Virus record (IMG/VR): IMGVR_UViG_3300044729_002979
Coordinates: 1-40,197 of that record
Direction: 5' to 3' (one strand)
Source of the DNA: a virus
Length of the DNA stretch: 40,197 nt
Shown here: in pieces, positions 18,114 to 40,197 of the stretch
How the letters are laid out: every line of letters begins with the position of its first letter
How positions within the stretch are numbered: the stretch's first letter is position 1
The notes under the pieces: generated by a model
What the model saw: only the letters and a program-made list of their open reading frames with translations
Told to the model about the DNA's origin: nothing
Databases searched by the model: none
Made by a program: the position numbers and the translations under genes

Positions 18114-21100
18114 TTAGATACCGATGGTTCTCCTCGCGCCAGGATTGTTCTTCAGCGCCGCAAGAGTTCTCTGCTGCCCAAGCTTCGCACCTTCTTGCGT
18201 AGCAATTCTGGTTGCCTGCAGCATGTCCTCTTCCGTAACGAACGGCAAGTCGCCGCTACCAACGCGACTGTATTTGATTTCTGTGCTGCTTGCACCAGAA
18301 GAAATAACCCTCTCGATGTTCCTTTCTCTTTCGACCGAGCCAATCCCATCGAGGGTCTGCCTGTTCTCGGAGAACGCATCGGCAGCGCTGGTCGATTTAG
18401 CGCCTGAGAGGGCTCCACGGGCGGCAGCAAGGGCCTCCACAACGCCGCTGGCTTTTACTCCCAAGCGGCCTTTGCCGTCGCGCTCCAAGGGCATGATCGC
18501 CTCTGGACCGGCTTCACCCATAAGGCCAGCCTGCATCGTTCCACCATCTTCAAACTGGAACAAAGTAGGCGAAGAAACGACACCGCCTTGAGCAAACGGA
18601 GTCAATTTTTTATCGGAAAACACTCCACCATCTGCAAATGTATATGCACTGGCGGCGGCGTTAAAATTGCTAACGGTATCTGTCTTCGGTCCACCACCAA
18701 ATGCAAAAGCTCTTGCAATACCAATCATAATGTACGTCGCTATCATTTTCGTCGCCTCTTGTATCAAGAGATCGCCAATGCTTTTTAGCATATTTTGAAG
18801 TGCATCGCGCACTTGATCCGCAGTGCTTGGGAGTTGCGCAAGCTCTGATTTCGCTTTAGCGATATTTCTGGAATACTCCTCCCAGGCGTCACCACCCTCC
18901 TTCACTTTCTGCTGCTCTCTCTCAAGGTTTTTGATTTGTGATTCGATGTCACCTCTTTGCGCATTCGTATCAATCAATGAACTGAACAGCTGCTGAGGCG
19001 CTCCCCCAATTGCATTGCCAATCCCTTGCGAAACACGAATAGATAGAGACTCAATGTCATTTAGGTCGGCTTTGGCCTCTGCGACAAATTTCTTTGTTTT
19101 AAGACCTGGCATATTCTCAAGCCTTTGCACGGCATTTGCATACTGCATAGCCTGATCAATTGAACCTGTTAAGTCAAGCGCTTCCCTGAAAGCGCTAGCA
19201 GCTTCACCGGCATACCCAAGGTCATACTCAAGCCCAGCAAGTGCAGTCTGCCTTTCTATATTCGCAAGCTTTTGCGCAAACGCTTGCTGCTGCTGTACTT
19301 CTAAAATGCTTTCCTCTAGCTGTTTTTGCTGCTTTGTAAGAGCAAGTCTCTGAGTCACCCCTGCGTTGATAGCCGTGATTGCTGCCTTAGCAGCGTCATC
19401 TGTCATTTGTCCATTTTTCCTAGCTGCTTCGATTCGCGCTTCTGCATCGAGCCTGTAATCTGTTATTAGATTCAATTCGGCCTGGCCTTCTTGTTGCTTA
19501 AGCAGGAGATCGAGCTGATTCCTGCCCATGCCAGCGCTCTGGGACATAACTTGATACTTATCCCTCTCAAGATCAAGTTGATTAGAGAGAGCGATTATGT
19601 TTGATTCTCCGCGAGCAGCTTCCTGTATAGACAGCAACGCATTATCGACGCCTATTTTATTTAGCTGCTTTTCAAGATTAAATCGCGCTTGATCTATTTG
19701 ACTGAGCTTGTCATTTGATTCGACTATGCCCCGAGTGTTCGTTTCAAGTGATGGCGCGACTGGACGCACAACTGACGCGGCCCGTTGATACTGCTGAGCA
19801 GGCAACGCGCCAACCATCTGCCCCTCCTTGACTCTCCCTTCGGCATTACCGCCAGGCCACTGGAAAAGCGAAGAAGGCTGATTTGCTTCTTTTCTAGCTT
19901 GAGCAAGCAGTCTATTGTAAACAGAATACAAGTCTTCAAACTTTTTAACTGGCTGCCCGTAGTGACTTTTCCCAGAAAGCGTCGGGAGTGACGCCCATTC
20001 TGGGGCGAGCGCATGTACCAATTCACGGGTGAACCCAGTCTTGTTAATATCCACATTTCTTCTGCGGATTAAAGAAAGTGCCCCGGCATCCTGGCGATCA
20101 GGAGTCATAGCCCCACCGCCAAGTGTTTTATTCCAGGTATCTGGCTTGAATTGATACGCACCAGCTGCAGCGGATGCGTAACCGCCTGAGCGAATTACGC
20201 GATTTGGGTGGCGACTCATGTCGGTGAAGGTTCCACCGCCAAATAAAGTTTGATATGGATTAGCTTTTTCGTATGTGCCTTCGGCGTACTGAACAGTTCC
20301 AAGGAGGGCTCGCTCCTCTGGTGTTTTATTAGCAGCAGAAATAGTGTTTATGCTATAATCGCCAGCTGCTACTCCGGCGCTAGCCTCAAATTGAAGATTT
20401 TGGATTTTGCGCTGAATTTCAAGCTGATAATCGGCGACGCTCATCTTGTAATCTTCTATTGATCTCTCTAGTTGCATACGAGATTTTGCTTGCTCGTACA
20501 GATAGTTACTCGTCTCTCTTTGGCGTTCGGATATTACAACTTCAAGATCACGGCGCTTCTTCTCTATGTCCGCTTCACCTTCGCTGCGAAGCTTCACAAA
20601 GTTGCGAACGGCGTCAAGCATCGTCTTTGCTTCGCCTTCTGCGCCAATAAATCCTTTGCGGAGGGCGAGATCGGCCGAATCAATACGAATCTGTGCAGCA
20701 GTACGAGCATTATCAGCCTCGGATCTAGCAATTTCTTGCCTTTTTCTGAAAATGTCTTCCTCTACTTTGCGGCGATTTTCGGAGGCTTGAATTTCAAGGT
20801 CAATTGCTTGACGCTGAAGGCTAAACCCCTGCTTGTACGCTTGCTTGATTTCATCGGCGGCCTGTTGAGCGGCCTTACGAGTTTGTTCGATCTGAGCGGG
20901 ATCGAGATCCAAGGACGGAGGCTTAATCTTAGAAATAGCGCGATATCTTTCAATTACCTTGCTTTCGGCAGCCATCTGCTGTTCGGTTGTTTGATATGGC
21001 TTAACAGCTGCATTTAGTTTTTCCCTGTCAAACTTTGCCCTTTGCTCTGGAGTTAGGCCAGATCGAATATTGTCAACATCACTCTTAAAGTTTCCTGCTT

Positions 21101-24100
21101 GATTAAAGGCTTTGACAATACCAGTAACCCATTGCAGAAGTCCTGCCATCGGACCGGCAAGTGCCGCTTGTAATTGAAGATTGAATTCAGCCCAGGCCTT
21201 ACTAAGCTCGATTGAAGACTTTCCAAGTGCGTTTAGATCATTGACGCCGGAAACCCCGATTTTTTTAATAATTTCAGATTGAATTATGGCCGTAGCCTCA
21301 GTGGCTCTCCCGGCTTCAATCAGCTTTTTAATATAAAACTCTTGCGATTTTGAATTAAAAAGATTCGCTTCTTTGAGTTTCTCGAAACCACTAATTGGGT
21401 CGCGCAGAGATTTGCCAGCCTCGGCGGCTGCCGCACCAAGCTGGTCAAATGCCGTGCCAAGGGCGGTGCCAATCAGCGACAGGCCAAAGCCCAAGCCGCC
21501 GCCAAGGAAGCCGCCAGCGGCGCCACCAGCAAGGCCTCCGAGCGATGCTCCAGCGCCTTGGCCAAACAGCAGCGGAAAGGCGCCACCGATCAAGCCCTCA
21601 CTGATTGCATTTGCCGCTCTAGAGCCAACACGGCGAGTCAGAAAATCGGCGTTCGGATCTCGCCTTTCAAATTGACGATTAATATTGGCAATCGTTTCAC
21701 GAAGTTGATTATCGAGACGATCAAACCCTTGGATTGTTGGATCCAGAATGGCCCTCAGCTCGGAAAGAGTGCCGGAAAGCGCTTCAAGTTCACGGGTTGA
21801 GCGCAATGAAATATCGCCAAGTGCGTCAAGACCCAGAAGATTCAATATATCTTGCCCGTTGGGAGGGACAGGGGGGTTGGGGGGGACAGGGGGGTTGTTA
21901 TTATTATTGTTATTATTGTTGTTATTATTGTTGTTATTATTGCCACCGCCAGCACCGCCGAGAGGATTGCTTGGAAGCGATGGGCGCCCACCACCAGAAA
22001 CAGTGGCAGCTGCACGATTAATGCTGCGCACAGCATCATTCGCAAAAACATCAGCTCCGCGCTGAGCGGAACGTTCAAATGCCTGGCGAATTCTTTCTTC
22101 AAATCTGTTGCCAACCAGTTCCTCGCCAGGAGGAAGAAGACCAGCAACTTTGCCCTGAGGAAGTAGGCGACCAGCGGAAGGGGAACGAAGCTTGCCCGTT
22201 TCGCTAACAATTTTTGCAATAAACTCCCTGTAATCGCCAATTACGCCAACCCAAGGATTTGGGACTTTGATGTCCCTAAGGTATTTGGCAAGTTCGCCGG
22301 AAATAAAACGCTCAAGCTCCCCAGGCCCAAGCATTCTCTGCGTTGACATAAAAGATGGAATTTCTGCGGCAGTGGCGCGACGATTCGCAGCCCCAACAAG
22401 ATCAGTCGTAATTCTTGCGTCTGGCAGAGCATTAAGCGCCGCACTGTATATTTCCGGTTGCGTAGTAAGCTCGGCAATTTGCTTTCTAAAAGAAAGCATC
22501 ATATCTTTGAATTCAGATGTTACGTTAGGAGTGCTGGCGCCAAACGGAAGTGGCTTGAATCCAGTTGACGGGCGTTCTGTAAATTCAAACCCTTTGTTTG
22601 TTGCTGTCAGCTTTTTAACATTGCGAAGAAGTGGCTCTTCGCCAAATGCTCTAGTCGTAGCGGCCTTGATCCTTGGATACGATTTTTGTATTTCAGAAAT
22701 ATAGGTATCTACGAGATTTTTTGCAATCTCTATCATTATCCGAGACGGACTAGCAATTCCAAGTGATTTTTTGATTGCAGTTACAATTGAAGTACCGAGC
22801 GAAACAGCGGAAGCTGCAACTTTAGGTATGCCTGACTTCAACTGTCCAGCAAGCGTATTCGATACATTATTTCCCGGCCCATTGCTGCCATTAAATTCAC
22901 GAACAATTTTATCAACTGCCTCTGCTGGCGAAAAATCTCCAAGAAATGCCTGACGGGAATTGCGGGCATCCTGAAGGCTTGTAATCGCATCCTTCAGTCC
23001 ACTACCGGGAGCCTTGGATTTGCTACCACCGGGGACGTTGACCCGCTCAAGGCGAATGAAGTCCCTGGAAATTCCCAGCTCTTCGTTCAAATTCTTTATT
23101 AATTGATCGGAAAGGTTGAGTTCATTTTGCTTCAGTGAGTTGATTACTGATTGAATGCGAGCACGCTCCCCAGATACGTCTACGTTTTTCTTTTCTAGCT
23201 TTTGAAGCTCTGCATCGACAATGGCAGTTGAACGAAGCAGGCCAGCAGCACGCTTAGGTGCATCAAGAGAGGATCGAATGTCGCTGCGAACGGCTTGTCC
23301 GGCAGTTTTTGGCACAGCAAGTGCTTTTTCAAGAGACAAGCGTCTTCCGGCGGCAGCATTTGCGTCAATAAGCGCATTTAGGCTTTTCGCACTATTTTGA
23401 TAGTCATCATTTTCTGCTACTGCAATAGCATTTTTGACACGCAAAAGTTCTTCGGAAACGTCAAGTCCCTGGCGCTCAAGTTTTAACAGTCCAGTCTCTG
23501 CTATTTTTGCAGAATTAATTGCATTTTCAATTCGCCCCTTTGCGTTAATTGGCGAAAGCTTACCTGTTCTGTAAGTTGCATTTTTGCCAGAACGATTCGC
23601 ACGCTCTGTTGCAATACGTTGTTTGTCAACCTCAGTTGTAATAGTCCTAGCGACAGAAAGACGCTTTTTATCAATTTCAAGCCCAGCCTCGTCAAGTTGG
23701 TTTAGGAATTGAATTTTTTGCTGCTGTGTTATTGAATTAGCTTCACTTGCAACAAAAATTCTATTCCTAGCGCCCTCAAGTTTTTTTTCCGCAATTGCCG
23801 TATTGCTTCTCATTCTCTCTGCTTCTTTTTCTGCGCGAGTACGCCCTATTACTTCAGCTCCACCGCCAAGCCGAGTTGCGAGCGGCTTTTCTCCAGTCAT
23901 GCCACTGAAGGGGGCCTTTGGGGGAGGTAATGGGCCACCAAATTCACGCCACAGCTTTGCCGTAGAACGCTCAACTTCTTTCAATTGCTGCTGCCCAAGA
24001 GAAACAGCGGCTTTCGTTTGATCGCGCAAGTTATCAGCCAAGTTTTTGGCGTATTTTTCTTGCTCGACAAATTGCTCTTTGCCGCCAAGGGGAACAGAAA

Positions 24101-25451
24101 GACCTACCTCTTCCGCTTTGTTTCTGTCTTGAATTTGCTTGATCTGCCTTTTAAGCTCAGCAGTCAGCTGCCTGGCTTTGTCTATTTGCCCATCTGTTAT
24201 TTTTTCGGAAATCAAATCTACTTTATTTCTAAGCTCGCCACTTTCAAACTGATCAAGCCTTAGATTGCTGATTGCTCTTTCTGTATCAAGCAATTTGTCT
24301 GCCTGACTTTTGCGATCTTTTTCAAGTTTACTGTAAAACTCTCCCTTTTTCCTTGAAGATTCAACATCATATTGCGGCAAAAGGCTCGACTTGCCCATGG
24401 GCGCAGCAATACCGGCTTTTACAGCCTGAGCGATATTTGAAGACTGTCCTCGCAACCCAGCAGCTCTTTTTTCAAGTTGCTGCATTTCGCCATTAACATT
24501 ATTTATTACTCCCTCAAGCAATTGCCATTCGTCACTTATGTAAGGAACGATTGACTGAAGTTCACGCGCCCTGCCCGCAAGGGCACTCATCGAGGCTTCA
24601 CTTTTTACAATAGTGCCATACGACTCAACAAGACTGCCAATCAAGGCTCTCGCGCCTTTCAAATTTTCTTTTGATCCTATTGAGCCTCCAACCTTAAATG
24701 CGCCTTCTGGCGTTGTCGGCTGTGTAAAGCCTTCTGCGAGCGCGGTTAATTGCTTTTGCCTGCCTTCATATATTTTTTGACTTGCAACCTGAGAAGCAAT
24801 TACAAAGCGATTGAATTGAGTAGATGCAATTTTTGAATTATCCGCAACAAGCTTAAGTACGTCTGCTTGGGCATTAAGACGAGAAAGAGTCGAGCTTGGC
24901 TGATTTTTAAGTACCTGCCCAGTCGCACCCTTTTCTTGTGCAGCGCCCAAGCGAAGATATTCATCAGCTAAATTTGAAATAGCTTCAGTTGCAATCTTTG
25001 TCGCTTTTGCTCTACCGGCAATTTTCTGTACCGCAGGAAGCCGATCCTCCTCTGCGTTAAGTTTTTTTTCTGCAGCAGCAAGTTGCGTCTTGGCTGTAGC
25101 TAAATTTTTAATTGCAGATTCCTGCCTTTGTAGGACTTCATTGTATTTTTTAGTGTTTGGGTTAAGCGTGGCTAGCTGACGCTGGGTAGATGTAATTTTG
25201 TCCGTATATTTATCAATTGCGCCAGAAGCCTCATTTATAGCTTTTTGTTGACTAAGTATTGTCTCTTTAATTGTTTTTAGATTGGTGTCAAATTTATCAA
25301 ATTCACTTGTAGCCGCCTTAACGCTAATGTTGAGCGGATTGGAATTAAGACTATTGACAATCCCTTCAAGCTGTGCAGCCTTGCTAACAATTTTGTCAAT
25401 TTTTGTTGAACCATTAATAATTAAATTAATGGCTGCGTCAATACTTGCCAC
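18114..25451 (-). CDS. Tape measure protein with internal lambda R-like lytic domain
   Basis: About 2445 residues from GTG 25451 (ASIDAAINLIINGSTKIDKI). A TTG at 25520 in the same frame is possible but lies inside a terminator hairpin. The first half is mostly alpha-helical coiled coil. A run of 16 Asn then PPVPPNPPVPPN (coding 21870-21941) precedes a Gly/Ala-rich hydrophobic region (coding about 21440-21610), the likely membrane-inserting part. At about 19905-20340 is a domain with VQYAEGTYEKANPYQTLFGG, GTFTDMSRHPNRVI, AAGAYQFKPDTW, DRQDAGALSLI and WASLP, matching lambda endolysin R (GH104 lytic transglycosylase). Its probable catalytic Glu is coded at 20280-20282. The C-terminus has FAQGGVVSSPTLFQF and GLMGEAGPEAIMPLER, typical of lambda-like tape measures. 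It sets tail length and probably opens peptidoglycan during DNA entry. Confidence 0.9.
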   Translation of the reverse strand: MASIDAAINLIINGSTKIDKIVSKAAQLEGIVNSLNSNPLNISVKAATSEFDKFDTNLKTIKETILSQQKAINEASGAIDKYTDKITSTQRQLATLNPNTKKYNEVLQRQESAIKNLATAKTQLAAAEKKLNAEEDRLPAVQKIAGRAKATKIATEAISNLADEYLRLGAAQEKGATGQVLKNQPSSTLSRLNAQADVLKLVADNSKIASTQFNRFVIASQVASQKIYEGRQKQLTALAEGFTQPTTPEGAFKVGGSIGSKENLKGARALIGSLVESYGTIVKSEASMSALAGRARELQSIVPYISDEWQLLEGVINNVNGEMQQLEKRAAGLRGQSSNIAQAVKAGIAAPMGKSSLLPQYDVESSRKKGEFYSKLEKDRKSQADKLLDTERAISNLRLDQFESGELRNKVDLISEKITDGQIDKARQLTAELKRQIKQIQDRNKAEEVGLSVPLGGKEQFVEQEKYAKNLADNLRDQTKAAVSLGQQQLKEVERSTAKLWREFGGPLPPPKAPFSGMTGEKPLATRLGGGAEVIGRTRAEKEAERMRSNTAIAEKKLEGARNRIFVASEANSITQQQKIQFLNQLDEAGLEIDKKRLSVARTITTEVDKQRIATERANRSGKNATYRTGKLSPINAKGRIENAINSAKIAETGLLKLERQGLDVSEELLRVKNAIAVAENDDYQNSAKSLNALIDANAAAGRRLSLEKALAVPKTAGQAVRSDIRSSLDAPKRAAGLLRSTAIVDAELQKLEKKNVDVSGERARIQSVINSLKQNELNLSDQLIKNLNEELGISRDFIRLERVNVPGGSKSKAPGSGLKDAITSLQDARNSRQAFLGDFSPAEAVDKIVREFNGSNGPGNNVSNTLAGQLKSGIPKVAASAVSLGTSIVTAIKKSLGIASPSRIMIEIAKNLVDTYISEIQKSYPRIKAATTRAFGEEPLLRNVKKLTATNKGFEFTERPSTGFKPLPFGASTPNVTSEFKDMMLSFRKQIAELTTQPEIYSAALNALPDARITTDLVGAANRRATAAEIPSFMSTQRMLGPGELERFISGELAKYLRDIKVPNPWVGVIGDYREFIAKIVSETGKLRSPSAGRLLPQGKVAGLLPPGEELVGNRFEERIRQAFERSAQRGADVFANDAVRSINRAAATVSGGGRPSLPSNPLGGAGGGNNNNNNNNNNNNNNNNPPVPPNPPVPPNGQDILNLLGLDALGDISLRSTRELEALSGTLSELRAILDPTIQGFDRLDNQLRETIANINRQFERRDPNADFLTRRVGSRAANAISEGLIGGAFPLLFGQGAGASLGGLAGGAAGGFLGGGLGFGLSLIGTALGTAFDQLGAAAAEAGKSLRDPISGFEKLKEANLFNSKSQEFYIKKLIEAGRATEATAIIQSEIIKKIGVSGVNDLNALGKSSIELSKAWAEFNLQLQAALAGPMAGLLQWVTGIVKAFNQAGNFKSDVDNIRSGLTPEQRAKFDREKLNAAVKPYQTTEQQMAAESKVIERYRAISKIKPPSLDLDPAQIEQTRKAAQQAADEIKQAYKQGFSLQRQAIDLEIQASENRRKVEEDIFRKRQEIARSEADNARTAAQIRIDSADLALRKGFIGAEGEAKTMLDAVRNFVKLRSEGEADIEKKRRDLEVVISERQRETSNYLYEQAKSRMQLERSIEDYKMSVADYQLEIQRKIQNLQFEASAGVAAGDYSINTISAANKTPEERALLGTVQYAEGTYEKANPYQTLFGGGTFTDMSRHPNRVIRSGGYASAAAGAYQFKPDTWNKTLGGGAMTPDRQDAGALSLIRRRNVDINKTGFTRELVHALAPEWASLPTLSGKSHYGQPVKKFEDLYSVYNRLLAQARKEANQPSSLFQWPGGNAEGRVKEGQMVGALPAQQYQRAASVVRPVAPSLETNTRGIVESNDKLSQIDQARFNLEKQLNKIGVDNALLSIQEAARGESNIIALSNQLDLERDKYQVMSQSAGMGRNQLDLLLKQQEGQAELNLITDYRLDAEARIEAARKNGQMTDDAAKAAITAINAGVTQRLALTKQQKQLEESILEVQQQQAFAQKLANIERQTALAGLEYDLGYAGEAASAFREALDLTGSIDQAMQYANAVQRLENMPGLKTKKFVAEAKADLNDIESLSIRVSQGIGNAIGGAPQQLFSSLIDTNAQRGDIESQIKNLEREQQKVKEGGDAWEEYSRNIAKAKSELAQLPSTADQVRDALQNMLKSIGDLLIQEATKMIATYIMIGIARAFAFGGGPKTDTVSNFNAAASAYTFADGGVFSDKKLTPFAQGGVVSSPTLFQFEDGGTMQAGLMGEAGPEAIMPLERDGKGRLGVKASGVVEALAAARGALSGAKSTSAADAFSENRQTLDGIGSVERERNIERVISSGASSTEIKYSRVGSGDLPFVTEEDMLQATRIATQEGAKLGQQRTLAALKNNPGARRTIGI
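21894..21941 (-). repeat. AAY trinucleotide tract coding 16 Asn
   Basis: Sixteen consecutive AAC/AAT codons inside the tape measure gene, followed in coding order by a duplicated Pro-Pro-Val-Pro-Pro-Asn segment. The mixture of AAC and AAT in blocks suggests repeated slippage or duplication of short units. It separates the coiled-coil half from the Gly-rich hydrophobic half of the protein, so it probably acts as a flexible linker. Confidence 0.9.
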
Positions 25452-25492
25452 TGCTGCAAGGCCCGGTCGTACCCCGATTCTAGCGAGGCAAG

Positions 25493-25517
25493 AAAAAACC
25501 GCCCCATAGTGAGGCGG
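25493..25517 (-). terminator. Intrinsic terminator between tail chaperone and tape measure
   Basis: On the minus strand a CCGCC / GGCGG stem with a nine-base loop is followed directly by six T. It lies 6 bases after the stop of the chaperone T-frame and 40 bases before the preferred GTG start of the tape measure. The stem is short, so termination is probably partial, which would lower tape measure expression relative to upstream genes. Confidence 0.6.
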
Positions 25518-25523
25518 CAAGGA

Positions 25524-32010: not shown

Positions 32011-32598
32011 CTACTGCTCAAAGTCTACGGCCAGGTTGCCATCTTCATCGCCAAGATACCTAACAACAGCCAAGCAAACAGAGTAGAACATTTCGCCCGG
32101 AAAATTGCTTTTCATTTTATTGACGATGTTGCACACAAATATCGTATTTTCCTTGGTATATCCCTCGCCACTGTCTATTCGCTCAATAGAAACACTATTT
32201 GGCAGATTTGGCTGTGTGGTCATCTCCCATCCTGTGTAGGCGCATATTCCCCCTTGCGCATCCCAGGCCGCGCAAAGATCATCGGCAGTTATCGAGAATT
32301 CCTGGCCACGTTTTTTTGAACTTTCACGACAGCATCTAAGAAATGTTTTGACCCTTCCCTCAAAAGTGCTGTATTTCTTTTCAAGAGAGCGCCTACCCCC
32401 CTCTCTGCAACACTGCTTGCACCACGAATGATAGCCGTCGGATGTTTGCTTGTGCTTGAAAAAATTACTTACATGGCTAATCGCTTCGCATTTTGCGCAA
32501 ATTTTTTCTTGGGTTTCAGGAAAAAAGAAAGCTCTTTTGGAGTTGTTGGCGTACCTGGAGCGCTCTGGAGTCGGAATCAAGGGTCTGTATCGAATCAA
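32011..32598 (-). CDS. Free-standing HNH-type endonuclease
   Basis: A protein of up to 195 residues. CAKC at 34-37 and CKQC at 60-63 form a likely zinc-binding pair, with FKHKQTSDGYHSWC between them, as in many phage HNH enzymes. Residues 116-165 contain GGICAYTGWEMT and SVSIERIDSGEGYTKENTIF with VCNIVNKMKSN, matching the SleRID...GYt.eN...vC..cN.mK motif of the HNH family. No ATG is available; the first start is TTG 32598, and the frame is continuous back to the TGA stop of the gene upstream (32632). It probably acts as a homing endonuclease or packaging-related nuclease; a homing role is favoured because it interrupts a row of small head genes. Confidence 0.8.
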   Translation of the reverse strand: MIRYRPLIPTPERSRYANNSKRAFFFPETQEKICAKCEAISHVSNFFKHKQTSDGYHSWCKQCCREGGRRSLEKKYSTFEGRVKTFLRCCRESSKKRGQEFSITADDLCAAWDAQGGICAYTGWEMTTQPNLPNSVSIERIDSGEGYTKENTIFVCNIVNKMKSNFPGEMFYSVCLAVVRYLGDEDGNLAVDFEQ

Positions 32599-35858: not shown

Positions 35859-37304
35859 TTATCTCCAGCGTGGACGATTTGTTTGCGCAATTGCGCGTGG
35901 CATGGTCTGCCAAACTAGATAGCGAATAGAATCTCCCGCGTGCGAAAGATCATTTTTGCCGCCCTTCATTGGTTTGTAGCTCTCGTCATACCCCCAGTTC
36001 TCAAGACTTTGTATTGTTTCGTAGCAGGCTGTTGGGTTTACAAGCACTGCGCCCGCATGAATATGCAAGTTTGCGTGAGCAATGGTTTCTGCGACGGGTG
36101 GGTTGCGACGTTCCGCGATTACTTTGATGCCCGCGCCACGCAAAATGTCGTGATCGCTTTCTGTTGAGCTTGTGCTGGCGTGACTGCCACTGGCGTCAGG
36201 GAAGCAGGTGATCATGCCATTTGCAAGCTGACGAGGGTATTGGCGCTTGATGTACTCAACAAGATCAAAAGTCGTGCGACAAGTGTGTTCAGCAAAGATG
36301 TGCAGCATTTGACCCATTGGCCCTGGGCGCACAACGGCATAGCAAGATTGACTCTTGCCAATGTTGAAGTCTGCGCCGAACATGATGAGTTCGTTCGGCT
36401 CGGGATGAAAAACGCTTGTGCAATGCTTTTGACGATCGAATTCGTAAAATACAGTTGCTTGTGCGAGATTAACAAATTCGCCGTTGAGATAAGCTTCAAT
36501 CAGGTTGGCGGGATAGGAATTTCTTAGGTTCTCAATGAAGCCCGGATCAAGGAAGGGGTTATCTGCAGTGCGAGCCTTGTAAAGTGCTTTCTCGTCTGAT
36601 GACTCACGCACAAACATATTATACAAAGCTTTGTGCCCTTCTGGCGTAGACGCAAAGCAAAGCTGAGGACAGTTGCCCACACGAACACGACCTTGCAGTT
36701 TGATAATTGCTGCTTCAGCTGTTTGCGTCGAAACTGTATCAATTTCGTCAACAGTCATACTTGCAGCATTAACGCCGATCAGGCGATTGTAGTTTTCAAA
36801 TGAACGCAGCAGGACTGGTGTATCGCCGCCCGGAAGTTTTAGAGTAAAAACAGGAAGTGGCGAGGTACGGAATTCATAAGGAATGCCGTAACGATCTAAT
36901 ACGTTCTGCCAGGCAGGAATTGCAACGTCTCTCAAGAGCGGAATAGTCGGCTCAAGAAACAAATGAGTGAAGCCTGGGCTTTTGAAACAAAGTAAGACTG
37001 ACTTTGAAACTGCTGCGAAGCTTTTCCCGCTACCAAAGCCGCCGCACAGAGCGACGAGGCGATGAGTAAAGTCAGTTACGAATGGGTATTGATGAGGAAG
37101 CAGATCATTAATTATACGTGCTTCACAGGCTTTCGTGTCAAATGCAACGTTGTTCTTTTTTGAGAGCTTGCGAAGAGTTGAAATGTCTTCAAAGAGCCCG
37201 AGAGCATTGAGCGCTGCGCGATCGGCGTAACGTGAACTGCGCGATTTGGCTGGCACGCTTTCTACGGGAGAATCTTTGAGACAATATACAGGCTGATTGC
37301 GCAA
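35859..37304 (-). CDS. terL: Terminase large subunit
   Basis: A 481-residue packaging motor protein. The ATPase domain has Walker A GGFGSGKS (88-95), Walker B SMTVDEID with Asp186 and Glu187, and coupling motif FASTPEG (217-223). The nuclease domain has GADFNIGKS (Asp312), CFPDASG (Asp370) and SHAGDSIRYLVW near residue 460, the three acidic sites of the RNase H-like fold. It is of the Terminase_6/3 type, slightly shorter at the N-terminus than many. The start is uncertain: TTG 37304 or GTG 37256, neither with a strong ribosome site. It drives DNA into the head and cuts it. Unusually, the small terminase candidate is more than 2 kb upstream. Confidence 0.95.
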   Translation of the reverse strand: MRNQPVYCLKDSPVESVPAKSRSSRYADRAALNALGLFEDISTLRKLSKKNNVAFDTKACEARIINDLLPHQYPFVTDFTHRLVALCGGFGSGKSFAAVSKSVLLCFKSPGFTHLFLEPTIPLLRDVAIPAWQNVLDRYGIPYEFRTSPLPVFTLKLPGGDTPVLLRSFENYNRLIGVNAASMTVDEIDTVSTQTAEAAIIKLQGRVRVGNCPQLCFASTPEGHKALYNMFVRESSDEKALYKARTADNPFLDPGFIENLRNSYPANLIEAYLNGEFVNLAQATVFYEFDRQKHCTSVFHPEPNELIMFGADFNIGKSQSCYAVVRPGPMGQMLHIFAEHTCRTTFDLVEYIKRQYPRQLANGMITCFPDASGSHASTSSTESDHDILRGAGIKVIAERRNPPVAETIAHANLHIHAGAVLVNPTACYETIQSLENWGYDESYKPMKGGKNDLSHAGDSIRYLVWQTMPRAIAQTNRPRWR

Positions 37305-37706: not shown

Positions 37707-38294
37707 TCAGCCAAGAGTCAGCGTGTCCGCTGACTGAATGACTGGCCGTTGTGCCCTATTAGCGATCTGTTGGGCGATCGCGGCTACGGCCTTAGGCTTG
37801 TTGCCGCTGGCCACCCACAAGCGGGCCAGATCTCCGAGGGGCAGCGGGCCGTTCTGCAGAACGGTAAGCGCCACTGTGTAGGCTGCCGCTCCGCGGCAGC
37901 TGTTCAGGCGTTCGCGGTGCTGCGGTTCGGTGCGGTGCTGCGCTGTCACCTTGGGGGCTGTCCAGCCCATGGTGGCGAATGCCTCGCGGGCTTCGTCCGT
38001 GAGGCTGACGCGCGGCGCGGTGGCTGCGCGTGCTGGCTTGGTGGCTTGCTGAGCTTCGGCAGCTCGCAGGAGGCTCTCCAGTTGCTCAAACGGCAGCGAG
38101 CCGATGGCACCGGCGGGCAGGGCTTCGATAGCTTGCGGCGTTGTCTTAATTGCCTTTACCGGGCTGGCGCCCTTGGCGGCCGGGAGCTTGGCACGGCGGG
38201 GCGTGCGCTGCAGCTTCTGGGCGGTCTCGCAGCCATCGGCTAACGCCTGCAGGCGGGCGGTCTCGGCGCGGGTGCCAGGGGTGTTGTTGGTCAC
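37707..38294 (-). CDS. Unknown GC-rich gene, possible DNA-binding protein
   Basis: A 195-residue protein from GTG 38294, preferred because AAGGA lies 7 bases before it; a longer frame to 38339 lacks this. The first 110 residues are rich in Ala, Pro, Lys and Arg and appear disordered (KLQRTPRRAKLPAAKGASPV). The last 60 residues (GAAAYTVALTVLQNGPLPLG, DLARLWVASGNKPKAVAAIA, QQIANRAQRPVIQSADT) look like a compact helical or winged-helix domain. I do not recognise the family. The gene has a strong promoter-like sequence upstream. It is markedly GC-richer than the rest of the window. A regulator or replication accessory role is conceivable but unproven. Confidence 0.65.
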   Translation of the reverse strand: MTNNTPGTRAETARLQALADGCETAQKLQRTPRRAKLPAAKGASPVKAIKTTPQAIEALPAGAIGSLPFEQLESLLRAAEAQQATKPARAATAPRVSLTDEAREAFATMGWTAPKVTAQHRTEPQHRERLNSCRGAAAYTVALTVLQNGPLPLGDLARLWVASGNKPKAVAAIAQQIANRAQRPVIQSADTLTLG

Positions 38295-38402
38295 TTGTTG
38301 ATCCTTTCGGTTTGGGTGGGGGCCAGCTTTCGCCAGCACCCATCCTTTCTACAGGAGATCGGCACCATTCGGGACCAATACGGCCAACCTGTAACAAACC
38401 TT

Positions 38403-38472: not shown

Positions 38473-38487
38473 TCAACGATTGCTAAT

Positions 38488-38640
38488 TAACATTTAACGA
38501 TTTGCTGTTTAACATTTAGCAATTACTATTTAACATTTAGCAATTTGCAAAATATAGTTACATCTAACAAATTACTATTTAACATTTAACGATTGCTGTT
38601 TAACATTTAACGATTGCTATGTAATATTTTACATTTAGCT
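38488..38640. repeat. AT-rich 21-base tandem repeats
   Basis: About six to seven degenerate copies of a unit like TAACATTTAACGATTGCTGTT, with period 21-22, interrupted by two weaker copies around 38540-38579. On the other strand the unit reads AACAGCAATCGTTAAATGTTA. No spacers of unique sequence exist between units. The region from 38341 to 39003 holds no gene, only this array, the promoter and the 18-base array. Confidence 0.85.
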
Positions 38641-38759
38641 AAATCTTTCAAATTCTACAAATTTGCGATTTCGTTATATTTTTTCACGAAACATTTAATT
38701 TTTAATCTTTTTTGCAAAATATATTTTTTATAATTTTTAGATTTTTATAATTTTTATAA

Positions 38760-39012
38760 TTTACATAATTTTTATAATTTACATAATTATAGTGATTTAC
38801 ATAATTATAGTGATTTACATAATTTTTGTGATTTGCAAAATTATAGTGAATATGAAAATTACAGTGAATATGAAAGTTTATGTGAATATGAATTTTGTGG
38901 TGAATGCGAAAGTTTATGTGAATGCAAAATTTATAGTGAATGCGAATTTTATAGTGAATGCAAAATTTACAAGTGAATGCAAATTCTGCGATGAATGCAA
39001 TTTTTACAGTGA
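38760..39012. repeat. 18-base tandem repeats (iteron-like)
   Basis: Fourteen contiguous units, thirteen of 18 bases and one of 19 (38958-38976). The left units read TTTACATAATTATAGTGA and the right units ATGCAAAATTTATAGTGA, with intermediate forms such as ATATGAAAATTACAGTGA between. The TGA end of each unit is constant from 38778 on. The array overlaps the last codons of the winged-helix gene (stop at 39004-39006). AT content is very high. The design is that of iterons bound by replication initiators. Confidence 0.95.
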
Positions 39013-39444
39013 ATGCAAATTTTCATCATTTTCAGATTTACGTTGAATGGGATAAATTCGCTCGGGTGCAATTTCTTTTGGCTGTCGAGTATTAGTTTCG
39101 CCCTGCCACAATTTTACCTTGAATGCTCTTATTTTGTTAGTGCCATTGTTTATTATTTCAGGTGAAACCATTATGCCCCTCTTCTCTTTGTATGCAACTT
39201 TACGAACTAAATTGATGTCTCCCAAAGCTTTTATAGACTTTGAAACTTTACTGTATGGCTCGCAAATTTCTTCTGCAAGCTGAGAAGTTGTAAGTTGAAT
39301 GAAAACTCTTGTGCGTGAAAGATAAATCAGAAAGCCAAATAACATGACATCGAAAGTAGAAAGTGAATACGTTTTTCTATTGATGAGCACATTTTTATAC
39401 AGGGTTTCTGAGAGTTTTGCCCCCGACAAATACAATCCCGACAT
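39004..39444 (-). CDS. RepL-like winged-helix protein, putative replication initiator
   Basis: A 146-residue protein from ATG 39444 (MSGLYLSGAKLSETLYKNVL); an upstream TTG at 39462 is an alternative. The core, STFDVMLFGFLIYLSRTRVF, then IQLTTSQLAEEICEPYSKVS, KSIKALGDINLVRKVAYKEK and RGIMVSPEIINNGTNKIRAF, has a helix-turn-helix followed by a wing and a MVSPEI tail. This resembles RepL-type plasmid initiators, whose wing leads into a similar iNP segment, but also generic MarR-like regulators. Its 3' end runs into an array of 18-base repeats, as expected for an initiator next to its iterons. It lies between the small terminase and terL, an unusual site. Function is inferred. Confidence 0.65.
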   Translation of the reverse strand: MSGLYLSGAKLSETLYKNVLINRKTYSLSTFDVMLFGFLIYLSRTRVFIQLTTSQLAEEICEPYSKVSKSIKALGDINLVRKVAYKEKRGIMVSPEIINNGTNKIRAFKVKLWQGETNTRQPKEIAPERIYPIQRKSENDENLHSL

Positions 39445-39606: not shown

Positions 39607-40140
39607 TCACTCATCAAAATCAGCTTCCTCAAGTGCAACAAGTAATTGCTCAACGCCAAGAGCATTCGATTGCAAACTTTTTGCAACTTCAGCAACTTTT
39701 GCGGCGCTATTTAGAATGCTCGGTATATCTCGCATATCTATCACGCGCTCTGAACTTAGATATTCATCTAAAGTACGATTAGCTAACTGTGCAAGTTTTG
39801 CAGCGTCATGAGAAAGAGCACGCCCTAAGAATTCTTGCTGAGAGCGATATTCTTCTAACTTTCGCTTATGTTCAATTGCTCTTGCATCTTTCTCAAGTTG
39901 CAGCTTATTTGCAAATTCATTTCTGTCGTAATCTGCTACACGTTCGCCCCAATTATTTCTCTTTGCAATTTGAGCGACTTTCGGTTCTTGCAAATTAAAT
40001 ATTGCGCTGATATAATTGTAAGATCTACCACTTCCACACTTAGCGTAGAGTTGGAACAATTCAAATTCTTTCTGAGTCTCATTCAAAGCTCCACCCTGTC
40101 TAATAAAGAATGACTTTGTAGCTAGATGTTCATGCAGCAA
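39607..40140 (-). CDS. terS: Probable terminase small subunit
   Basis: A protein of up to 177 residues. Around residues 20-75 it has LNETQKEFELFQLYAKCGSG, RSYNYISAIFNLQEPKVAQI and AKRNNWGERVADYDRNEF, a helix-turn-helix followed by the nW.eRv..yD motif common in small terminases of the phage type. A long charged helix follows (QLEKDARAIEHKRKLEEYRS), then AAKLAQLANRTLDEYLSSER and an acidic end EQLLVALEEADFDE, as used for oligomer formation and contact with the large subunit. The start is uncertain: TTG 40140 is listed, TTG 40086 is closer to the domain, and the frame stays open to the window's right edge at 40197, so the gene may be partial. Confidence 0.7.
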   Translation of the reverse strand: MLHEHLATKSFFIRQGGALNETQKEFELFQLYAKCGSGRSYNYISAIFNLQEPKVAQIAKRNNWGERVADYDRNEFANKLQLEKDARAIEHKRKLEEYRSQQEFLGRALSHDAAKLAQLANRTLDEYLSSERVIDMRDIPSILNSAAKVAEVAKSLQSNALGVEQLLVALEEADFDE

Positions 40141-40197
40141 AGAATTTGAGTCTTGCGCGAATTGTAGACTCTGATCAAAAACATTCGATTCACAATC

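Follow-up and report, generated by a model that had tools for sequence, protein, structure and literature searches.

A one-directional CATTCA array upstream of the large terminase gene, a candidate packaging-region signal in several phage lineages

We analysed a viral sequence window that comprises a complete IMG/VR record, a linear fragment of 40,197 bp. The window carries a long, one-directional series of the hexamer CATTCA just upstream of the gene for its DNA-packaging motor. Arrays of this type lie upstream of, and parallel to, the gene for the large terminase subunit (TerL) in several phage lineages. We tentatively read the array as a polar, multi-copy, pac-like cis signal of the packaging-initiation region, a reading to which we assign a probability of roughly 0.4. 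Its main rival is a Chi-like element read by a host enzyme.

Structure of the array and its surroundings

On the minus strand, the order of transcription in the region is small terminase subunit (TerS), winged-helix (wHTH) gene, array A, A+T-rich tract, array B, G+C-rich ORF and TerL. TerL is followed by genes for the portal, the scaffold and an SPP1 gp13-type coat protein. The features are as follows.

39607-40197, minus strand: TerS gene, cut by the contig end; predicted helix-turn-helix and long helices
39004-39462, minus strand: RepL-like winged-helix gene, 152 aa, between TerS and TerL; TTG start, or ATG at MSGLY; an exchanged cassette in relatives
39044-39049, 39120-39125 and 39296-39301, minus strand: three CATTCA copies inside the wHTH gene, encoding PIQ, AFK and FIQ
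38901..39015, minus strand: seven exact CATTCA cores of array A; plus-strand starts at 38901, 38919, 38937, 38955, 38974, 38992 and 39010
38760..39012, minus strand: array A, 14 units of 18 bp, one of 19; right-hand units TTGCATTCACTATAAAAT with the core CATTCA, drifting at the left end to GTAAATCAC and TATAAT types
38640..38760, strand not assigned: very A+T-rich tract between arrays A and B
38475-38629, minus strand: array B, about seven 21-bp repeats with the minus-strand consensus AAATGTTAAATAGCAATCGTT
37707-38339, minus strand: G+C-rich ORF between array B and TerL
35859-37304, minus strand: TerL gene

An earlier note on this DNA had described a continuous array of fourteen 18-base units that overlaps the 3' end of a winged-helix gene and whose unit drifts from TTTACATAATTATAGTGA at the left to ATGCAAAATTTATAGTGA at the right. 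All three observations held. The lag-18 identity was 0.73 for the whole of array A and 0.86 for its left part, as compared to maxima over all lags of 0.44 and 0.63, respectively, in 500 dinucleotide shuffles. A partial unit, ending at 39023, follows the 14 full ones. The unit adjoining the wHTH gene is TTGCATTCACTATAAAAT on the gene strand, and the gene terminates within it: its last codons, N-L-H-S-L-stop, are the first unit of array A, placing the stop codon inside the array. The seven exact cores are spaced by 18 or 19 bp, and the three copies within the gene occupy different frames.

The lag-21 periodicity of array B was reached in none of 500 shuffles. Its repeat length corresponds to two helical turns, and similar TTAAATGTTAAAYAGCAAT blocks are present in relatives. 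Rfam gave no match, and a BLAST search of the array against named phages returned just one A+T-rich, chance-like match to a Mycoplasma phage. Foldseek searches with the TerS model yielded helical matches that were uninformative. Elsewhere in the window, an Endonuclease VII/HNH-type gene (phrog_1035; 32011-32598) is located within the head gene cluster, and tandem repeats of GTTGGGAGGGACAGGGGG and GTTGTTATTATT (21858-21942) lie within a very long ORF, 18114-25520. One relative contains approximately 33 repeats of the hexamer GCCGTA (G003:16540-16735, in L064).

CATTCA as the conserved word

Searches with TerL and TerS added about 60 loci. At every examined locus that included TerS and its downstream side, TerS was followed by a RepL-like wHTH gene and then an array, whose sole constant part across these loci was CATTCA. 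Spacing of the hexamer was 18-19 bp in the clade of the window, mostly 4, 9, 13 or 17 bp in a second clade, and 20-22 bp in L041. In six records, its density on the gene strand was 12-39 per kb in arrays versus 0.17-0.32 per kb elsewhere, and no copy was found on the opposite strand within the arrays. Closely spaced pairs were confined to the array interval in 8 of 12 related records. All 20 of the TerS-bearing loci examined had 5-25 forward and 0-2 reverse copies in the 2 kb after TerS; at most 2 kb before the TerS end contained 0-1 forward copies at the same loci.

The strand bias extends into coding sequence. Within 16 non-redundant wHTH genes, CATTCA occurred 63 times forward and 5 times in reverse. 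The copies were distributed over frames 0, 1 and 2 as 22, 15 and 26, and encoded HSL, TFK, AFK, PIQ, SIH and others. Since the copies fall in all three frames, these counts indicate that selection acts on the DNA word rather than on a peptide.

These data bear on whether the array is a selectively unimportant repeat that arose from the 3' end of the gene and grew by slippage. Units do change quickly between near relatives: in L002 and L003 the gene has been kept at 97% while array units were gained, lost and altered, and the array of L002 is 86.6% identical over 550 bp where TerS is 99% and the wHTH gene 97% identical. The graded drift along the units is also as slippage would produce. Against this, the same hexamer on the same strand recurs despite differing periods and flanks, in every frame of coding sequence, and ahead of TerL genes that are only distantly related. 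We therefore consider neutral growth by slippage quite unlikely.

The winged-helix gene is exchanged while the array is retained

Comparison of close relatives indicates that the wHTH gene and the array are not co-inherited. In L083 and L084, the TerS proteins are 99% identical and the arrays 88.5% identical over 496 aligned bases, while the wHTH proteins are 18% alike; the alignment resumes where the array starts. Likewise, the wHTH gene has been exchanged and the array retained in L088, L089 and L091 (TerS 95-97%) and in L046 versus L033 and L093 (TerS 95-98%). Across the exchange pairs, array DNA is 76-91% identical and the wHTH proteins 16-22% alike. The array is thus retained with TerS and the downstream backbone upon wHTH exchange. 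Moreover, the recognition-helix segments differ between cassettes that face the same array (EPYSKVSKSI, ADLSNTYRRI and FNPTAFSASL). It is unlikely that all of the cassettes bind the same word. We rejected the wHTH protein as the array's reader, as a main reading, based on the lack of co-inheritance. Exchange pairs of this kind provide a way of separating an array from a gene that is a mere neighbour.

The L083/L084 exchange is sharp, spanning about 240-720 bp after TerS, and the CATTCA field may supply homology for it. A second exchanged position lies beside the array: the ORF at 37707-38339 is swapped for an unrelated-looking ORF in L006 and L034.

Replication origin and partition

The earlier note had interpreted the units as iteron-like, beside a gene for a RepL-like protein, and the region as a possible plasmid-type origin. 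In the form of this proposal considered here, the RepL-like protein would bind the iterons and melt the A+T-rich tract, so that replication of the lytic or rolling-circle type could begin. An initiator-like gene is indeed adjoined by direct repeats of one unit, as in the iteron origins of RepL, lambda O and SPP1 gp38, and an A+T-rich tract is present. The resemblance to RepL held at the level of the family, in which the homologue L082 scored 27.3 bits against PF05732, above the Pfam gathering cut-off of 20.3; it did not hold for the window copy itself, which scored 15.9 bits. PHROGs matches of the family were mostly to replication initiators and DnaD-like loaders. The subfamilies are 10-25% alike and share a conserved P and G separated by a few residues. 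As to the suggested structure prediction, Foldseek matched the wHTH model to generic MarR/ArsR folds, with none below E 0.001.

A specific initiator-iteron pair would need to move together. The wHTH gene and the array do not, and the recognition helices vary between cassettes facing the same array; the origin reading is therefore unsupported by the exchange pairs. No wHTH gene was recognised beside the arrays of the second group. The region contains an A+T-rich tract and no exact DnaA box. Cumulative GC skew, which the earlier note had suggested as a check, gave no consistent turn at the array in four large relatives and was not usable: its maximum was near the array in G001 and G005, and its minima were kilobases off in G003 and G004.

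In addition, all five large relatives, among them G004, whose 127-bp end repeat is what a circular assembly would show, encode a separate O-like initiator with internal repeats, adjoining a DnaB-type helicase and away from the array. O-like initiator genes include G001 (L060:4353-5189), G004 (L068:16168-17028) and G006 (L077:17684-18634). Clustered dyads predominate among the repeats within the initiator genes, with CCGTCAGACGG in G004, GTGCAGAATCTGCAC-type in G006 and GGGCTCCCAAGAGCCC-type in G001; G003 has one long dyad and G005 has 31-bp direct repeats. Repeats inside the initiator gene are the layout of lambda ori. We regard the initiator genes of G001, G004 and G006, whose clustered dyads differ in motif from phage to phage, as candidate lambda-type origins. 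The relatives' lambda-type repeats lie inside another gene than the one beside the array. In G001 and G004, this gene and the array are separated by about 15 kb. This weakens the origin reading, although SPP1, with two origins of the kind proposed about 13 kb from each other (PMC6316719), is a precedent for a second origin. Taken together, we consider an origin at the array unlikely.

The suggestion of a phage-plasmid lifestyle was likewise not borne out. No integrase was found in the relatives tested, the window itself being a fragment, and no plasmid relative of the wHTH protein was found. ParA gave only weak matches below the cut-off, within DnaB-type helicase ORFs of G004-G006. A gene for the tubulin-family protein TubZ was absent from seven relatives. 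The latter result also bears on whether the array might be the partition site of a TubR-like centromere-binding protein. The closest PDB structure to the wHTH family by profile was indeed TubR (4asn; E 2.6e-4 to 5.6e-4). Nevertheless, the Foldseek matches were to generic folds, the array and gene are inherited separately, and TubZ is missing from the seven relatives. TubR/tubC type III partition was accordingly rejected as very improbable.

The array in other phage lineages

When viral contigs were scanned blindly for triplets of CATTCA at 15-19 bp spacing, at least 79 new loci emerged. Among the matches listed, TerL lay downstream on the same strand, 1.6-4.4 kb away, at 23 of 79, as compared to 1 of 80 among the matches listed for a control scan with the reversed motif, in which it was 9.7 kb away (Fisher p about 2e-7 for the matches listed, with loci within a group not independent, some matches being simple repeats and three TerL queries derived from this same scan). 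Using the window-group TerL queries alone, TerL was found in either orientation at 23 of 79 of the matches listed.

The scan recovered window-type phages together with an A+T-rich and a G+C-rich group, whose TerL proteins are about 23-25% identical to those of the window's group, as well as L161 and L185, with TerL 35-40% identical. One TerL from the G+C-rich group is 43% identical to that of cyanophage S-2L. At several G+C-rich loci, the array lies at the 3' end of a gene that reads as nuclease-like, with CATTCA directly before the stop codon. In the A+T-rich group, the flanking genes and a TerS candidate are encoded on the opposite strand, yet the array has the same direction as TerL; no wHTH gene was recognised beside the array in this group. 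In L119, L126, L145 and L162, flanking ORFs are on the opposite strand and the array still follows the orientation of TerL. The unrelated-looking TerS candidates of the second group received no PHROG assignment. That unrelated phages carry the array at the same place makes it look like a packaging-side signal and not a plasmid-type origin.

The same loci speak to late-operon regulation, in which activators or repressors would bind at the arrays, upstream of a late promoter situated past array B. Ahead of the block of ORF, TerL and structural genes lies the non-coding region, and genes for DNA-binding proteins are available (wHTH, and a sigma factor elsewhere in the genomes of relatives). However, the array's position and orientation vary with respect to local genes, at a gene's 3' end in some lineages and upstream of opposite-strand genes in others, while its orientation with respect to TerL is constant. 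CATTCA copies also lie deep within coding sequence. Regulation of the late operon is thus an improbable role for the array.

A pac-like signal and a Chi-like element

A packaging-region signal would account for the location at TerS and TerL, the polarity, the single cluster per genome in the window group and the independence from the wHTH gene. As in pac sites, the array is found at terminase genes with fixed polarity. In the pac-like reading, the functional word would be CATTCA, with 5-25 copies on a single strand, the series mostly beginning about 230-350 bp past the terS stop. The copies would allow the terminase complex of TerS with TerL to load onto the concatemer here and to package toward TerL, and the RepL-like gene would be a replaceable cassette within the signal field. 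We infer three elements of this reading, namely recognition of the array by the terminase, cleavage in its vicinity, and headful packaging. The nearest named relatives of the window-group TerL include Jersey-type phages, at about 41% identity, and one Jersey-type phage is predicted to package by headful (PMC9409062). The end repeat of G004, in keeping with a circular record, was also counted in favour of the pac-like reading.

The array shares features with known pac sites. In P1, pac consists of seven hexamer repeats (TGATCA/G) inside the pacA coding sequence that act in packaging (PMC10028697). The window type similarly has short hexamer repeats in or beside packaging genes, partly coding. 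It differs as a candidate site of 5-25 CATTCA copies over about 0.5 kb, after terS and not inside it, with no GATC. Like the SPP1/SF6 pac (boxA, boxB and boxC), it comprises direct repeats at a siphovirus terminase locus, and the window's coat protein is SPP1-type. The SPP1 pac overlaps the start of terS, whereas the window array follows terS and spans another gene, and motif and copy number differ.

Several observations argue against the pac-like reading. The arrays, at about 300-700 bp, exceed known pac sites in length, and the occurrence of the same hexamer with other small-terminase candidates strains the notion of a TerS-specific reader. With respect to the latter, neither the SPP1 nor the SF6 pac repeats are recognised by the DNA-binding domain of SF6 TerS on its own (PMC4737164), so pac repeats need not be bound by TerS. 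Sharing of the word between different small terminases suggests that it is read by TerL or, in the manner of Chi, by a host factor. The array was absent from the stretches around TerL of the marine cyanophages KBS-S-2A and MED4-184 and from the 33 kb of S-2L that were read. Contig ends seem to cluster near the array; as repeats break assemblies, this was given no weight.

In the Chi-like alternative, an end-resecting nuclease or helicase of the host would read CATTCA, and a dense polar cluster next to the packaging cut would shield the end of the concatemer and favour recombination. The array is indeed a polar short motif near the packaging region, the word is the same despite different terminases, and its spacing varies freely. 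The Chi motifs of lambdoid phages are concentrated in the interval from the replication genes to the terminase, and towards cos in those phages that encode a recombinase (PMC3784561). Relatives of the window phage encode an Erf-like annealing protein and an exonuclease. The lambdoid clusters resemble the array in that a short polar word is gathered in the stretch from the replication module to the packaging genes, and differ in that their word is an octamer over kilobases where that of the window type is a hexamer in a tight periodic array. On the other hand, CATTCA is not enriched elsewhere in the phage genomes, a Chi element would need neither 8-25 copies in about 0.5 kb nor an 18-bp period, and RecC is absent from Synechococcus elongatus, the sole cyanobacterial control genome. 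Although it is the main rival of the pac-like reading, we find the Chi-like element doubtful.

More broadly, CATTCA might be a packaging or end-protection word common to several otherwise unrelated lineages, with one conserved reader, TerL or a host enzyme. The word would then be a polar signal under selection strong enough to overprint neighbouring genes in all three frames. We advance this proposal tentatively, as less likely than not.

Host and significance

The best model for the phage sigma factor of a relative was the cyanobacterial RpoD-like TIGR02997 (E 6e-71, below the model's cut-off), which makes a cyanobacterial host likely. This gene is located at G001:59331-60287, across L062/L063, and has homologues in G003-G006. 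Scans of genome collections with TerL and the phage sigma factor returned no host or prophage and reached no cyanobacterial genome.

To our knowledge, the packaging-initiation signals of most phages are unknown. A polar word found beside TerL by a simple search for strand bias may provide a means of mapping packaging signals in metagenomic phages. Should the reader of CATTCA be a host enzyme, the hexamer would become a candidate for a Chi-like motif, probably a cyanobacterial one.
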